The notes beneath the pieces were generated by a model. It was given only the letters and a program-made list of their open reading frames with translations, was not told where the DNA came from and ran no database searches. The translations under genes were made by a program, and so were the position numbers. 64,000 nt of DNA from Deltaproteobacteria bacterium (GTDB taxonomy: Bacteria; Myxococcota_A; Polyangia; Haliangiales; Haliangiaceae): assembly GCA_020630875.1 (NCBI GenBank), contig JAHDIH010000010.1:1-64000 (forward strand), read 5' to 3'. Below, piece after piece: positions 46,241-53,243 of the stretch (its first letter is position 1; each line of letters begins with the position of its first letter).

Positions 46241-48013
46241 TTAGTAGCGGAAGCCAAGTCGTGCAAATAAGGTGAACTGTGAAATCCTAGGCACGTCCAA
46301 AAGTGGCGCTCTAGCAGCGTCGATGATCTTTACCTTTTGAAATCCATAGGTTCCGAAACCGGTCAGATACATTTTCTTAGAAAGTCTTGCGCTGGCCTGC
46401 GCGGTGATGCCTAGGCCATCGTACTGCGAACGACCAAAGCAAGTTGCAACTGTGGTACAAGGAGACCTATTTTGATCCACGGACGACTGATACCAGAACC
46501 TCAGCGCAGCGTTGAGACGCTCCTCGAGAAACCATCGTTCAAACGCAACATCGAATCGTCCCACATTTGGCGTTCCAATCTTCTTTCCAAGGCCTTGGAT
46601 TCTGGCATAGCTAGCAGTCGCGCGAAGCCCGCCCCAAAACTTTCTGTCCACGATCTTAGCCCCTACTTCGGCACTTTTGGCAGCCGGAATAATGGCGCTT
46701 GGATCGGTCTGCTTAGCTCCGTCAATGAAAAACAGAACTGGCGACTGACGATGTCTGTATTGTCCCCAGGTAGAAATTTCAAGACGCCTATCGAAAAGCG
46801 CGAGAGAGCCAGCAAGTCGCGCCGACTGCCGCGAAATTCGAAGCAGTTCAAGGTTGTTTTGAATCACTGTAGAAACGGGGGCATTAGGGTCATTAGGATC
46901 ATTGTAAGCAAGATCAAAAGTCTGCTGAGCGTTAACCTGAAGTGTTTCCACATCTACATGGTTGTATGCCGCGGTCAGAATAACTTGAGGGTGCGGCTTA
47001 ACGTTGGCGCCAAGACTAAAGTTGGTAAACTGAGTACCCGCAAAACCAAACACATCGGTAACGCCATAGTGATATAAGTCAAAAAGACCGTTGGGGCGCC
47101 AATAAAGCTGGCTTGTAATAGCGATTCGCATAACCTCCGGCTCGCCCATACCACCAAGTTGACGAGGAGGCAGCACGTCGCCCATCGGCAGCACCCCAAA
47201 GGCGCCTAGCGCCCCCCACAGTCCGCGACCTTCAAATCGCGTTGCTGCACCAAAGGCTATTGGCTTTGCAGCGGAGTAATCGCTATCAATGGAGCGGGAA
47301 CTGCGGCGAGGGTAAAGGCCACCAAAGCCAACAAGAGAGACCTTTGGTGACATTTTATATTGAAGCTTGATCCCATCAAGTTTCGAGCTCGCCGCTTCCT
47401 CTACAAACTGCCGACCCAAAACTGCAGAAAATTTACTGCCGGTATAGGTTCCTTGGAATTCGCGAATGTCGTATTCGTTAGTGCCGTAGGTACCAGACTG
47501 TTGACCGTTAGAATACCGCAGTCGAATATCTGAGGTAAAGTCTAGCTTTTCACTCCCATAGGAGAGTCGATTGCGCGCATCTCCAAAAAAGCGCGCGTTA
47601 GGACTTGCCGGTTCGACAGGAACATCAGCGTTGGCAAAGGCTGGACCTGTAGCTGCTGACTCACCATAGTAAAAGCTCGTCAACGTAAACGAGCCATGCC
47701 AGCCTTCGCGAGCACGAAAGAAGCGATCGACGCGCTTATCATTTTTGTCAGGGACACGTTCATCTTCTACCCCATCAAGCTCTTCGTCTTGGTCGTCTTG
47801 CTCTGCAGCGATTTGTGCGGCCTTTTTTTCTTTCTTCTTTTTGCGACGTTTTTTGGGGGCCGGCTCTTCTTCGTCATCATCCCCGACGCCGTCATCAAAT
47901 TCTTCGTCGTCTAATACTTCTTCATCGTCGTCAAAGTCATCGTCAACACCATCCTGAGCCCAAGCCAGTTGGACTGAAATGAGGAGCATCAACAGAAAGC
48001 GGGCTAACGGCAT
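46241..48013 (-). CDS. Outer-membrane beta-barrel protein with highly charged N-terminus
   Basis: A 590-residue protein. Signal peptide MPLARFLLMLLISVQLAWAQ, then an exceptional block of Asp/Glu (about 25 acidic residues), a Lys/Arg block (PKKRRKKKKEKKAAQ) and another acidic stretch. From about residue 100 come alternating amphipathic strands ending in FTLFARLGFRY with terminal Tyr, as in large outer-membrane barrels; about 18-26 strands could fit. One cysteine pair (CTTVATC) is in a loop. GGGAGGGA lies before the ATG, inside the last codons of the cytochrome gene. It probably serves as the porin partner of the cytochrome (inference). Confidence 0.8.
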   Translation of the reverse strand: MPLARFLLMLLISVQLAWAQDGVDDDFDDDEEVLDDEEFDDGVGDDDEEEPAPKKRRKKKKEKKAAQIAAEQDDQDEELDGVEDERVPDKNDKRVDRFFRAREGWHGSFTLTSFYYGESAATGPAFANADVPVEPASPNARFFGDARNRLSYGSEKLDFTSDIRLRYSNGQQSGTYGTNEYDIREFQGTYTGSKFSAVLGRQFVEEAASSKLDGIKLQYKMSPKVSLVGFGGLYPRRSSRSIDSDYSAAKPIAFGAATRFEGRGLWGALGAFGVLPMGDVLPPRQLGGMGEPEVMRIAITSQLYWRPNGLFDLYHYGVTDVFGFAGTQFTNFSLGANVKPHPQVILTAAYNHVDVETLQVNAQQTFDLAYNDPNDPNAPVSTVIQNNLELLRISRQSARLAGSLALFDRRLEISTWGQYRHRQSPVLFFIDGAKQTDPSAIIPAAKSAEVGAKIVDRKFWGGLRATASYARIQGLGKKIGTPNVGRFDVAFERWFLEERLNAALRFWYQSSVDQNRSPCTTVATCFGRSQYDGLGITAQASARLSKKMYLTGFGTYGFQKVKIIDAARAPLLDVPRISQFTLFARLGFRY

Positions 48014-50322
48014 ATCGAGTCCCTCCCCGTTCCGTTTCCTGGCGCCCACGTCGTAGTATTGTGACACCCACTGCCAGTACAAGTCGAGCGAAGCCCGTGA
48101 TTAGCTCTTTGCGTATCATTAGCATGACAGCTTACGCACTGCGGCGAGAGCCCGATGAAGTTACCAGACCGGTGACAGTCAAAGCATGGCAGCGTGCGAT
48201 GCAGTCCTGAGAGGTTGCAACCAACGCCGGTGTGATCAAATTGCGCAGGGGCGAAAGAAAATTGACTATGGCACTCGCCGCAACGAGGCGACAGCGAGTT
48301 ATTGTGAATGTCGTCCTGGCGATGGCAGGTGATGCACATGTCGCCGGTTCCAGCGAGGGCCCGATTGTTTTTATGACACCGTTCGCAATCTACCTGATCG
48401 TGTTGGCCGTTCAGCGAGAACGAGCCGACGTCATGCAATGGTTTGATATTCTTAAAGCTACTGGTGTTGTGGCAGGTTTCGCAAACCGTGCCAAACTTGC
48501 CTTTGTGGACCTTTGGCTCTTCATGGCAGGAGAAACAATTGGTTGCCAAAGGTTTAAAGTCTACGGTTTTGTGACAAGACGAACAAGCCACTTTGAGATG
48601 CTGCCCTTCCAAAGGATAACGACTCATGGTGTTGTGATTGAACGTAATCTCGCCAGTTTCCACATGACACTTCTCGCAACGGTCCCCTAACGCACCATTG
48701 TGGGCGTCATCGCTCTTGTGGCAGCCTGATGCGGAACAATTGGTAGGCGTGTTGGCAAAACGTTTTTTCTGATGGCAGTCCTGACATTTAGGAACCGTCT
48801 TGTGCAGGCCTATCAGCGGGTACTGAGTGTCTCGGTCGTGATCGAACTTGTACGGCCACCAACTTCCTGGCGTATGGCATTTAGAGCACGTTTTTCCCAG
48901 ACGTCCTTGGTGGAAGTCTTTATGACATTGCGGCCCGCACTCTGTCGGCGTGTTTTTGTAAGTCGTTTTTCCAGTCTTTGGGTTCTTGTGGCATTTTCGA
49001 CAAGTCACCCCAGAATGTTTTTTTACAAGTTTGAAGCTTCCATTTTTACCGTGCGCTTCTTGGAAGGCAGGAAGTTTGTCAGGACGCTTGAGATTCGGAT
49101 TCCCTGGTGTTTTGTGACACTTGGTGCACTGCGAGTTTTTGTACTCTCGATCATGGACATTTTTGTGCGCATGGCAATCCATGCACTTGATGCGACGAGA
49201 AAACTTCTCAAACTTATCTGGCGTCTTCCCTCTATGACAATCCTTACACTCTGCCACCGCATGCTTGGCCACCAGCTTAAACTTGGTGCGCCGGTTGTGA
49301 TTGAATATGGACTCGGCCTTCCAACTCGTCGCTTTGTGGCATATTTCGCACGCGGGTGGATTGCCGAACTGCTTGAAACGGTTGCCGTGAGGGCTGTCTG
49401 ACTTGTGACAATCTTTACAACGCTTGGACGGCTTACGCGTCCCTCGGGATTTAGTGTGGCACGTATAGCAAGCCACGTCACGATGGGCGCTACTGAGCTT
49501 AAAGCGCGTTCGATCGTGGTTGAATGAAAATTTTTCTAGCGACTTATTTTTTGGAGAATGACAGCGCTCGCAGTTTTTGTCGAACAGATGCCTTTTGTGA
49601 GGACTCTTGTGACAGTGACCGCACAGATCGGCGTTCTTGCGTCCTAGATTAAATTTAGCTCGAGGATGGCACTTAGCGCAGGCGACGTCAGCATGATTGC
49701 CAACCAGCCCGACGGCAGCATCTTTTTTGCTATTGTGGTTAAAGTCCAGCTTGCGTTTTGGCGGCTTCCAAACGCCTTGCGTATGACAGCGTTCGCAATG
49801 CATCATGGCGCGGCGGTCAAAGTTGTGAGGCTGGTCTTTCTTGTGGCAACTGCCGCACAACTGGTCCTCGCCTAAAAATACTCGTAGGCCCTGACGGTTT
49901 TTCTTTTTGTGGCAGTTTTCGCATGGCACCGTGGCATGCCGCCCCTTTAGCGACCAACCGGCCTTATCATGGTCAAAGTTCCGCATGCCGCCTACGGCCC
50001 GCCAACCCATAAGATCGAAACTTCGACCGCGATGATCTTTGTGGCACGACTCGCAGGACCTTCCGCGAACTTTCGAAGTTGCGTGATAACCTTTCCCTTG
50101 GTCAATGCGTTTCTTTAGGTCTCGATGATCGTGGCATCCCAAACACTTTGCATTGCTCGTCGCAGGAGTACCGTCATGACAATCGTTGCAATGCGCAGCA
50201 CCTTCCAAAGAGGCATGACTGGTTGCCAACTTTCCAGGTGACGTACTCGCAAAGTCCGAACCATTCGCAATGTTTGCGATGCTAAGTATTACGAGAATTA
50301 GTATATTAGGAAAATGCCCCAA
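48004..50322 (-). CDS. Multihaem c-type cytochrome with 27 CxxCH plus 3 stretched sites
   Basis: A 772-residue exported cytochrome. Signal MGHFPNILILVILSIANIAN. Counting by eye gives 27 CxxCH haem sites, one CxxxCH (CGPQCH) and two CxxxxCH (CSASGCH, CTGSGCH), so up to 30 haems. Most of the protein is a tandem repeat: a F-x-H-D/N motif, about 6-10 residues, x-L-x-x-x-H, then V-x-C-x-x-CH. Nine repeats can be seen, such as FNHDRTRFKLSSAHRDVACY. The extra His of each unit is a good distal ligand. It starts at a TTG and is followed by the porin gene with overlap. Long multihaem wires of this kind bridge the periplasm. Confidence 0.95.
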   Translation of the reverse strand: MGHFPNILILVILSIANIANGSDFASTSPGKLATSHASLEGAAHCNDCHDGTPATSNAKCLGCHDHRDLKKRIDQGKGYHATSKVRGRSCESCHKDHRGRSFDLMGWRAVGGMRNFDHDKAGWSLKGRHATVPCENCHKKKNRQGLRVFLGEDQLCGSCHKKDQPHNFDRRAMMHCERCHTQGVWKPPKRKLDFNHNSKKDAAVGLVGNHADVACAKCHPRAKFNLGRKNADLCGHCHKSPHKRHLFDKNCERCHSPKNKSLEKFSFNHDRTRFKLSSAHRDVACYTCHTKSRGTRKPSKRCKDCHKSDSPHGNRFKQFGNPPACEICHKATSWKAESIFNHNRRTKFKLVAKHAVAECKDCHRGKTPDKFEKFSRRIKCMDCHAHKNVHDREYKNSQCTKCHKTPGNPNLKRPDKLPAFQEAHGKNGSFKLVKKHSGVTCRKCHKNPKTGKTTYKNTPTECGPQCHKDFHQGRLGKTCSKCHTPGSWWPYKFDHDRDTQYPLIGLHKTVPKCQDCHQKKRFANTPTNCSASGCHKSDDAHNGALGDRCEKCHVETGEITFNHNTMSRYPLEGQHLKVACSSCHKTVDFKPLATNCFSCHEEPKVHKGKFGTVCETCHNTSSFKNIKPLHDVGSFSLNGQHDQVDCERCHKNNRALAGTGDMCITCHRQDDIHNNSLSPRCGECHSQFSFAPAQFDHTGVGCNLSGLHRTLPCFDCHRSGNFIGLSPQCVSCHANDTQRANHGLRSTCTGSGCHNTTTWAPGNGTGRDSICR

Positions 50323-50365
50323 CCCTCTGAAAGCTTAACACGAGAAGATGGGCACAAATCAACGG

Positions 50366-52543
50366 CTAGTAGGAGGAATCCGCGACCCAACGCCAATCTC
50401 GATAAATGTGATATGCAGAAAAAATCACGAGCAGGATTGTAAAAGGAACGTGGACCTGTTTCCACGAGTGCAGTAGTTGTTGCGCTCGTGAAGCCAGGAC
50501 CTTGCGACGGTTTGCAAGTAATACCCGCCCCGTCCGATGGGTAAACTCTTTGTTCAGCGCTTTGGCTACGCCGGCTTTCTTAAATTTTTTCTTTCGACTA
50601 AGCCAGCGGTACGGGCGTTTCAGATCTTCTAAGATTAGCCACGCAAAGGCGTGAAAGAACCCTGGTTTGACCGCTACAGCGTCTGCACGGCGAGAATGCG
50701 ACTCACTCTCTTCGTGGATCATTTTGTACAGTCCTGGGTGACTTGACGCCAAAGCGCTAATTGCGCGTTTGTGATCTAACTCTTCAAGCTCCCGGCCGTT
50801 CAATAAGTCTGGTACCTGCGTATAGATGTATCGACCAAGTACCCCAGAGACCACCACGATGACCATGCACCAAAACGCGAGCATCGCCCACCAGATTTCA
50901 AATGCTAAGGCACAGTGAATGACAATGAACATGGGACCTACAGTTCCCGACATCATGTGAAAGTCAAACCACATGGTGTTACTCGCGAGAAAGCGAAACG
51001 CTGAAAACCGCCGAAACATGGGATAGATCGCAGCAACTGCCATTAATACGGTACCGATGTAGCCCGTCCACATCGACAACTTGGTACCGTCCTTGTACCG
51101 AACCTCTTCTTTGAGAAACTCCAACGCTAGCCCGGCTTTTTCAGGATCCGCGGTGATCTGAGCGTATGCCCAAGAATATTCGGGCCACCACGTTCGTAGC
51201 GCAACTTCTACTAATGCCAGTAGAAACGCCCCAAGTCCCAGCGCCCAAAACAGAATCCCCGCAAAACGAAATCGACGTACACGAGCGATCCCTGCGTTCC
51301 TAAGACCGATCCCCTCGGTGAACGGCGCGGTAGGCAAAATTTCGTTTTTAAGCTTCGGTAGCGGTTCGTTATAGCCGGCTGCCGCAATCTTTTTAACTTC
51401 TTTCGATCGTTCGTTAAAAAGTTCGTAGGCATTCAGCTCCACCAACGCACCGGTCGGACAAGCTGAAACGCAAGCCTGGTCTCGATAGCTGCCGCAGTGG
51501 TCGCACTTGTTTGCAATACGTCTGGCACGAGCCACCCGAGGAGTCCCAGAACCAAACTTGAGACTGCCGTCCTGCTCGAGCCTGGAGAAAAACCCGGGCT
51601 CAAATCCAGGGCTTGCGGGGTTTACAACGTCCACCATCGTAATTGCCTCGTAGGGACAAGACTGCGCGCAAGCGCTGCATCCCGTACAAGAGGCTTCGTT
51701 GATAACGACTTCCTTTTTGGTGGTATCGTAGGAAATAGAGTCGTACTCGCACGGATCGATGCAACGTTGGTCCGTACACGTCCGGCAAGTAAATACAAAG
51801 TCGAGCATTCCCAGTTGGTAGCCACCAAGCGTAAGTCGCTGCGCCCCGTAGCGATCGGTGCATGCTTTTTCACAAAGTTTGCAGTCGATGCAAAGGTCGA
51901 GTTGCCGAACGCGAACCATCGGTCCGGATACTGAAATTCCGTGACGAACGTAGAAATCTAGGACTTCTTGTTTTACGTCTACTAAGCGCTCTAGACGCTC
52001 TAATCCAGCCAGTGCGGCTTTTTGCAACCTACCAGAGAAGTCTTGGCTTCTCCCGGCGAGTTCCGTGACCAAACGTTCTGACATCAAGAATGCCGTAGTG
52101 GGGGCACTTGCGAACAAACCTACGCACTGTTCTTTGCGGGATGTACTCGCTGCCGGCAGAAGAGCCCGACTGTTAATTACATCTCCAGCCATGAATATCG
52201 CAAGGTTCTTAAATGAGATACGTGCCAGAGGTTCGGGTTTGATTAACGATGCTTCGTTCCCCTTACCTCCGGTTGGTGCATTCTGCTTCGCAATTCGAGC
52301 ACGAAAATCTTCTTCGTCAAAAACACCAAGAGAAAGTTGCCCCGCCGCCACAAACACCATCTGCCTATCTAGTTCGACAATGCCATCGCGATCCAAAGTG
52401 ATGTATTTCAGTTCGCCCTTCTCTGCAGCCCTTGAGGTTATCTCAGACGGAATACCTTGAAAAAGAGAGAAACCACTAGCATGCATCATGCAGTCGCGAT
52501 CACTTGACACCCCCAATTGCCCATCCCCCATTACGACCACCAT
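50366..52543 (-). CDS. Membrane FeS protein with cyclic-nucleotide-like N-domain and cytochrome b-like C-domain
   Basis: A 725-residue protein. Residues about 1-190 resemble a degenerate cyclic-nucleotide-binding domain (FSLFQGIPSEITSRAAEKGE). Then come four ferredoxin-like cysteine groups (CIDCKLCEKAC, CRTCTDQRCIDPC, CTGCSACAQSCPYEAI, CDHCGSYRDQACVSACPTG), enough for four [4Fe-4S] clusters. The C-terminal part has about six membrane helices with paired histidines (FDFHMMSGTVGPMFIVIHCA and HVPFTILLVIFSAYHIY) that could hold b-haems. Myxococcota-type genomes often contain such proteins, and it precedes the cytochrome in the same orientation. It could pass electrons from the quinone pool or a cytoplasmic donor to the cytochrome (inference). 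Confidence 0.8.
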   Translation of the reverse strand: MVVVMGDGQLGVSSDRDCMMHASGFSLFQGIPSEITSRAAEKGELKYITLDRDGIVELDRQMVFVAAGQLSLGVFDEEDFRARIAKQNAPTGGKGNEASLIKPEPLARISFKNLAIFMAGDVINSRALLPAASTSRKEQCVGLFASAPTTAFLMSERLVTELAGRSQDFSGRLQKAALAGLERLERLVDVKQEVLDFYVRHGISVSGPMVRVRQLDLCIDCKLCEKACTDRYGAQRLTLGGYQLGMLDFVFTCRTCTDQRCIDPCEYDSISYDTTKKEVVINEASCTGCSACAQSCPYEAITMVDVVNPASPGFEPGFFSRLEQDGSLKFGSGTPRVARARRIANKCDHCGSYRDQACVSACPTGALVELNAYELFNERSKEVKKIAAAGYNEPLPKLKNEILPTAPFTEGIGLRNAGIARVRRFRFAGILFWALGLGAFLLALVEVALRTWWPEYSWAYAQITADPEKAGLALEFLKEEVRYKDGTKLSMWTGYIGTVLMAVAAIYPMFRRFSAFRFLASNTMWFDFHMMSGTVGPMFIVIHCALAFEIWWAMLAFWCMVIVVVSGVLGRYIYTQVPDLLNGRELEELDHKRAISALASSHPGLYKMIHEESESHSRRADAVAVKPGFFHAFAWLILEDLKRPYRWLSRKKKFKKAGVAKALNKEFTHRTGRVLLANRRKVLASRAQQLLHSWKQVHVPFTILLVIFSAYHIYRDWRWVADSSY

Positions 52544-52583: not shown

Positions 52584-53243
52584 TTACAGGGCTTGGCTCG
52601 CGTTTGTACGTAAAGCTTTAATCTGCGCAGCATAGTCGTTTCCCCCAAATACGCCACTACCGGAAACAAACACGTTAGCTCCCGCGGCGGCTATCTCCCC
52701 GATATTTTCAACCTTTACCCCACCATCGACTTGAACGTCGATAGAGCGAGTTCCAATCATGGTTCTTAGCTTTTCAAGCTTAGCCTTCGTTTGAGGAATG
52801 TAGGACTGTCCACCAAAGCCTGGGTTGACCGACATCACGAGAACCATGTCCAAGTGATCGAGTACGTTTTCGATCGAGCTCAAAGGAGTTGCAGGATTCA
52901 AGGCTGCACATGCTTTTTTGCCAAGTTGTCTGATTTTGTTCAATACCCGATGCAAGTGCACACACGCTTCCACGTGAACCGAAATAATATCTGCTCCCGC
53001 TTTGGCGTAGCGTTCCACGTACTCTCCAGGTCGTTCAATCATCAAGTGAACGTCTAGTGGTTTAGTGGTGGTCTTTCTCAATGCCGCGACAATCGGAAGA
53101 CCGATGGTAAGGTTTGGCACAAAGTGCCCATCCATCACATCGACATGGATGTAATCTGCACCGCCCTGGTCGATGGCTGTAACCTCTTCGCCAAGCCGCA
53201 TAAAGTCAGCACTAAGGATCGATGGAGCAATCTTGATAGCCAT
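52584..53243 (-). CDS. rpe: Ribulose-phosphate 3-epimerase
   Basis: A 219-residue TIM barrel of the pentose phosphate pathway. [59 protein letters not shown] and [20 protein letters not shown] cover all active-site and metal residues of the family. It follows rsmB with a 21-base gap. Confidence 0.98.

Follow-up and report, generated by a model that had tools for sequence, protein, structure and literature searches.

A three-gene locus in a Myxococcota genome encoding a putative trans-envelope electron conduit with a 30-haem cytochrome

The window analysed here is a stretch of 64,000 nucleotides (contig JAHDIH010000010.1 of assembly GCA_020630875.1) from the genome of an uncultured myxobacterium (Myxococcota), 4.07 Mb in size and 97% complete. 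Direct reading of the window reveals three open reading frames (ORFs), all on the minus strand and here called FES, CYT and BAR, whose products probably carry electrons together across the cell envelope. Their features are as follows (FeS, iron-sulphur; CNB, cyclic-nucleotide-binding).

50366..52543, minus strand: FES, a fused CNB-like / four-cluster ferredoxin / di-haem-b membrane protein of 725 aa with homologues in 58 loci; proposed inner-membrane entry or exit of the conduit
51974..52486, minus strand: degenerate CRP/CNB-like domain of FES (about residues 20-190), recognised indirectly, through an hhalign comparison of two clade profiles (A7 and A8) and the distant clade
51452..51898, minus strand: four [4Fe-4S]-type cysteine groups of FES (residues 216-364), with 16 invariant cysteines and a match to PF13247 (Fer4_11)
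50384..51271, minus strand: membrane domain of FES, about five helices and two predicted b-haem sites, from motifs and the hhalign match to an inner-membrane protein of Emticicia
48004..50322, minus strand: CYT, a secreted c-type cytochrome of 772 aa with 30 haem sites in ten tri-haem units, from motif counts and alignments
46241..48013, minus strand: BAR, an outer-membrane beta-barrel of 590 aa with a signal peptide, an acidic N-terminal linker and 22 predicted strands, from AlphaFold2 and Foldseek

The arrangement agrees with a preliminary description of the locus, made from the sequence, which had reported three same-strand genes with the last two overlapping: BAR starts at the ATG at 48013 and shares 10 nt with the end of CYT, around its stop codon (ATGCCGTTAG).

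The ferredoxin-like part of FES matches Fer4 families of Pfam, PF13247 in particular (31.4 bits for a cut-off of 26.2), and the latter is matched at E<=0.01 by 57 of the 58 FES homologues. Its four cysteine groups (C218-228, C253-265, C286-296 and C347-362) comprise 16 residues that are invariant in all 58. The membrane part carries the motif WX3HX13H twice, on transmembrane helices 3 (W525/H529/H543) and 5 (W694/H698/H712), and SGxxG on helix 4. The paired histidines are almost as well preserved as the cysteines, since H529, H543 and H698 are kept in 58/58 homologues and H712 in 57/58; W525 is a tryptophan in 55/58 and W694 in 45/58, where it is otherwise a tyrosine, and [ST]GxxG is found in all. 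Both the cysteine groups and the membrane histidines announced in the preliminary description are thereby confirmed. The two HX13H pairs suggest that a b-haem site lies close to either face of the membrane, and the loop charges would put both the FeS part and the CNB-like part on the cytoplasmic side. The N-terminus of the window's FES has no direct match to PF00027 or to a CRP fold. Nevertheless, the N-terminal profile of its clade (A7) aligns with that of the distant clade (A8; hhalign 95%, E=3.9e-8), and the latter matches PF00027 (1.8e-7) as well as solved CRP/PKA folds (4.5e-10). By these profile comparisons, the domain is real but degenerate. The preliminary description had seen in it a possible gate of the conduit; the CNB-like fold holds, through the distant clade, but gating is speculative. 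Since inspection by eye reveals no canonical phosphate-binding cassette for cyclic nucleotide monophosphates (G-E-L/I-A ... R-A/S), either in the window or in the consensus of the distant family f32, gating by such nucleotides is unsupported. The domain probably has a structural role or responds to something different from cAMP.

CYT has a TTG start, a hydrophobic N-terminal signal and repeated cytochrome c7/c3 domains (Pfam). Its haem sites are 27 CxxCH, one CxxxCH and two CxxxxCH, that is, 30, the upper figure of the preliminary description. The three atypical sites are real haem sites because the homologues have ordinary CxxCH at the aligned positions, and the register is invariant: all 30 second-Cys/His pairs are kept among 39 homologues, the two-residue move of the aligned histidine of haem 2 in the window's own clade being an alignment effect. 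Some homologues count 28-29 sites under a CX2-4CH pattern, which is read as wider spacing within motifs that keep their positions. Conservation extends to about 29-30 other histidines, the distal ligands, and therefore all haems can be bis-His. The protein consists of an N-terminal tri-haem unit and nine repeats in which the ligands follow the order distal-distal-haem-haem-distal-haem, ten tri-haem units in all. The best matches of its profile to solved structures are 3ov0 (1.5e-8), a 16-haem protein and 6r2q chain A (2.6e-5), which we take to be GSU1996, HmcA and MtrA, respectively. The NrfB-like family PF22678 has no match in the window's genome. Related giant cytochromes occur in other Myxococcota, one with 47 haems (L134:3-3986, an open frame of 1328 aa) and one with 36 (L050:13481-16318, 945 aa).

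BAR has no Pfam or NCBIfam family and no sequence relative in the PDB, and its matches are at the level of the fold. An AlphaFold2 model built with 27 homologues is a 22-strand barrel; its strand blocks mostly have predicted local distance difference test scores (pLDDT) of 80-97, with a mean of 75 for the protein because the N-terminus and loops are disordered. Foldseek matches this model to outer-membrane porins. The best query TM-score among the matches listed is 0.41, for the TonB-type receptors Cir and PfeA, which are 22-stranded as well. MtrB stands at rank 35, a fold-level resemblance that is common to many porins. The outer-membrane-type barrel of 590 residues proposed earlier is thus upheld by the model. 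TonB receptors of 22 strands can hold a plug, so that a barrel of this size can do so, and the lodging of a cytochrome in BAR is putative.

The distribution of the three genes was studied in two ways. A named scan by short peptide patterns, which is not a proof of absence in other phyla, yielded 65 loci. All of them belong to metagenome-assembled genomes (MAGs) of Myxococcota, under the labels Kofleriaceae, Myxococcales, Nannocystineae or 'Deltaproteobacteria', and none comes from a named isolate. The full trio in the order FES-CYT-BAR is present at 33 loci. Near-complete CYTs with downstream sequence have a barrel in 37/37 cases, in 35 of them within 250 nt by rough start calls (a 38th CYT, ending 3 nt from its contig end, was left out). 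In addition, 284 genomes of the phylum were searched for FES (E<1e-25) and for the CYT profile (E<1e-120). All 19 genomes with FES also have CYT (Fisher p=2e-25, uncorrected for relatedness), so that the check on co-occurrence suggested in the preliminary description was passed. CYT occurs in 24 of the 284, and of the five beyond the FES set, two show contig-edge fragments of FES adjoining CYT (L129, L130). The gene order is the same in the window's family (L031) and in f32 (L035, L037, L040, L042-L047), two families between which FES is only 22-24% identical. CYT and BAR are still paired in families f43 and f7, whose FES is found on a separate contig, and the pair is likewise kept where FES has moved (L075-L077, L126-L128, L131, L132), including three loci where FES is divergently transcribed (L075-L077). 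No fourth gene is conserved with the trio in the neighbourhoods compared across families. The evolutionary distances of FES, CYT and BAR correlate (r 0.96-0.98), as vertical inheritance alone would also have it. The conservation of gene order and haem register across families excludes a chance grouping, and by these comparisons the three genes are an evolutionarily fixed set.

Several variants of the locus were met. In the Kofleriaceae loci L075, L076 and L077 there is a second, paralogous FES, 41-43% identical, with a divergently oriented CYT-BAR pair, and at least two of these paralogue loci (L058/L075 and L057/L076) come from MAGs that also hold a standard trio. In other families of the phylum (L136, L137, L138, L140, L141) the cytochrome-b part of FES stands alone, as open frames of about 220-480 aa, beside cytochromes of 20-23 and 10 haems; no barrel was recognised there by the profiles used.

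The closest described relatives are the PCC3 and PCC4 conduits (such as those of Sideroxydans/Leptothrix and of Zetaproteobacteria, respectively), a class with few experimental tests so far and compared here by its published descriptions. In these systems a porin goes together with multihaem cytochromes of the periplasm and with an inner-membrane protein that bears the motifs seen in FES (He et al. 2017, PMC5566968). As in PCC3, the trio has a porin gene, a periplasmic cytochrome of very high haem number and an inner-membrane protein that combines five transmembrane helices with two WX3HX13H motifs and SGxxG. The haem numbers are multiples of three in both, 30 here and 21, 24 or 27 in the PCC3 cytochromes of Gallionellaceae, whose length is reported to suffice for crossing the periplasm (PMC10734462). 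Yet the PCC3 inner-membrane protein has about 300 aa and lacks the fused FeS and CNB-like domains of FES, up to 42 strands are predicted for PCC3 porins against 22 for BAR, and PCC3 was reported in Alpha-, Beta- and Gammaproteobacteria. PCC3 also includes an extracellular cytochrome (median 34 haems), whereas no other CxxCH-rich ORF lies beside the trio and, genome-wide, the CxxCHK pattern clusters in CYT only. The lack of an extracellular cytochrome is shared with PCC4 subgroup II (He et al. 2017), which has a porin too and where the inner-membrane protein of the same motifs lies beside a pfam13247 FeS gene, the two being one gene in Oceanospirillum beijerinckii. That subgroup has three periplasmic cytochromes (4, 5 and 10 haems) rather than a single one of 30, and a CNB domain is not mentioned for PCC4.

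More distant systems share parts of the locus. MtrAB-like Pcc systems are also porin-cytochrome pairs, and their resemblance to the trio is seen in the weak profile match to 6r2q and the Foldseek match to MtrB, but MtrA has 10 haems and the largest Pcc periplasmic cytochrome known in 2014 had 14 (PMC4245776). Identity with MtrAB was rejected on family scores: CYT reaches 23.5 bits against the DmsE/MtrA family TIGR03508, whose cut-off is 192.2, and is not a member, and BAR has no Pfam or NCBIfam match that would place it in the MtrB/PioB family. The best solved-structure match, the dodecahaem c7-polymer 3ov0, has serial tri-haem c7-like units, but 12 haems, and differs from CYT in the ligand order, given above for CYT; we know of no porin partner for it. 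The plasmid pEMTOL02 of Emticicia oligotrophica (NC_018749) encodes a homologous inner-membrane protein (hhalign E=6e-29) with both WX3HX13H motifs, a 23-haem cytochrome 33% identical to CYT and a neighbouring FeS/flavin NAD(P) oxidoreductase. It differs from the trio in that the FeS/flavoprotein is a separate gene, in a second cytochrome with 40 haems and in an outer-membrane candidate unlike BAR (hhalign probability 5.6%); a 538-aa signal-bearing protein may be its barrel. This PCC3-like cluster (L165) is plasmid-borne in a cultured species of Bacteroidota and is a possible laboratory model. On plasmids of Tardibacter and Pontibacter, a membrane protein of this kind is accompanied by a FAD/NAD/2Fe-2S protein and by a cytochrome with 7 haems. 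No CNB domain was found in the flavin/FeS oxidoreductases of the Emticicia, Tardibacter and Pontibacter clusters, and the role of this separate redox protein seems to be taken in Myxococcota by the fused FeS module of FES. A full-text search of the literature returned no description of such a combination in Myxococcota. The preliminary description had raised the possibility of an undescribed type. This is only partly borne out, since PCC3 and PCC4 already combine such parts; what is new is the entry protein with fused CNB-like, four-cluster and cytochrome-b parts, a cytochrome of exactly 30 haems built from ten tri-haem units, the lack of a surface cytochrome dedicated to the system and the occurrence in Myxococcota.

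Strict co-occurrence, gene order and domain anatomy support the trans-envelope path proposed in the preliminary description, and FES, CYT and BAR probably constitute one complete conduit of the PCC3/PCC4 kind across both membranes, running outward in this organism. Electrons from a cytoplasmic donor linked to ferredoxin or NAD(P)H would enter the FeS clusters of FES, cross the inner membrane via its two b haems, run through the periplasm along the 30 haems of CYT and leave via BAR, into which the end of CYT would plug as MtrA does in MtrB; the final acceptor could be Fe(III), Mn(IV), humics or another cell. The genome contains the c-haem maturation genes. Because the 10 haems of MtrA already form a reported rod of 104 A (PMC4245776), an extended chain of 30 could bridge both the periplasm and the outer membrane. 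Several observations weigh against this interpretation. The AlphaFold2 prediction of CYT is unusable (pLDDT 61, predicted TM-score 0.29), so that the shape of the wire and its fit to the barrel are putative. The 22 predicted strands of BAR are fewer than the 26 of the MtrB barrel, and the barrels of the distant clade are shorter still. No surface cytochrome accompanies the trio, the membrane domain of FES may interact with quinone, the co-occurrence statistic is inflated by related genomes, and 12/13 tested relatives carrying the conduit genes have haem-copper oxidases. The last point also implies that the conduit does not generally go with an anaerobic way of life.

The alternative interpretations concern first of all the donor. 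The membrane domain of FES could be a quinol oxidase or quinone reductase, the role that He et al. assumed in PCC3/PCC4, with the FeS and CNB-like parts of FES being regulatory or a side branch. The two-haem domain is indeed cytochrome-b/FRD-like, and complex I, which is present in the window's genome, needs a quinol outlet where no terminal oxidase was found among those searched for (haem-copper and bd). Yet the four FeS groups are fully conserved and fused in line with the b haems, and flavin and/or FeS oxidoreductases accompany the same membrane protein in the related clusters. The latter observation favours, but does not prove, a cytoplasmic non-quinone donor, contrary to the published assumption; quinone chemistry at FES is somewhat unlikely.

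A second alternative concerns the direction. The same conduit could run inward, with Fe(II), Mn(II) or a partner cell feeding electrons into the barrel-cytochrome end, and with FES delivering them to quinone or cytoplasmic carriers. PCC3/PCC4 were proposed for Fe(II) oxidisers, the lack of a surface cytochrome recalls MtoAB/PioAB and PCC4, and the haem-copper oxidases of many relatives could be the final sink. In the window's genome, however, no RuBisCO was found and no haem-copper oxidase either (a match at 8.5e-4 coincides with a cytochrome-assembly gene); a bd oxidase was not found, other oxidases and reductases not having been searched for. Moreover, Fe(II) would have to reduce FeS clusters of low potential, an uphill reaction, and the NAD(P)H/FAD oxidoreductases of the related clusters are typical of outward flow. 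Inward flow is therefore unlikely. Since a 97% complete genome with complex I shows neither of the two oxidases, the outward direction is favoured in this organism, which differs in the haem-copper oxidase from 12/13 tested relatives; one FdhF/YdeP-like molybdoenzyme is also present. The boldest version of the outward reading, in which a quinone-independent and possibly signal-gated conduit would lead from cytoplasmic ferredoxin or NAD(P)H to the exterior through a single 30-haem polypeptide spanning from the inner membrane to the surface, as the main respiratory outlet of a myxobacterium without oxygen reductase, is decidedly doubtful.

It could further be supposed that BAR exports or anchors CYT, which would then be an extracellular wire or electron store and not a trans-envelope plug. 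The very high haem number, the c7-like repeats as in capacitor or wire cytochromes and the poor AlphaFold2 prediction of the CYT fold are compatible with this idea, but one would expect wires or stores to differ in haem number, as the extracellular cytochromes of PCC3 do (10-35), and that of CYT is fixed at 30; the fixed pairing of CYT with an inner-membrane entry protein likewise makes this scenario quite improbable. A chance neighbourhood of unrelated genes, which the adjoining housekeeping genes rpe-rsmB-fmt might suggest, was rejected as refuted by synteny (an order kept in distant families and 37/37 CYT-BAR pairs), its probability being negligible.

Read as a conduit, the locus extends PCC3/PCC4-like systems to Myxococcota as a minimal three-gene version, and its strictly conserved 30-haem wire offers structural work a ruler-like target. 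Together with its flavin/NAD(P) counterparts elsewhere, the fused FeS module argues that this family of inner-membrane proteins draws electrons from the cytoplasm and not from quinol, a revision of the published PCC3/PCC4 model that can be tested.

The genes around the trio vary by family. Upstream of FES in the window, one further gene on the same strand is separated from it by a 40-nt gap:

52584..53243, minus strand: rpe (ribulose-phosphate 3-epimerase), part of the housekeeping group rpe-rsmB-fmt and outside the conduit

The rpe-rsmB-fmt group is found in part of the window's group. In f32 and f43, a conserved Cys-rich lipoprotein gene (L042:5075-6571 and its homologues) lies beside FES, even where CYT-BAR has moved, and is absent from the window. 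About ten Kofleriaceae loci (L051:8383-9009 and the like) have a response-regulator-like ORF on the opposite strand upstream of FES, also not in the window. Finally, at least 17.9 kb of the source genome are 100% identical and inverted on two contigs, C7:118000-137000 (L160) and C13:10000-29000 (L163); this is either a duplicate assembly or a very recent large inverted repeat, and it may explain the 6.1% 'contamination' of the genome.

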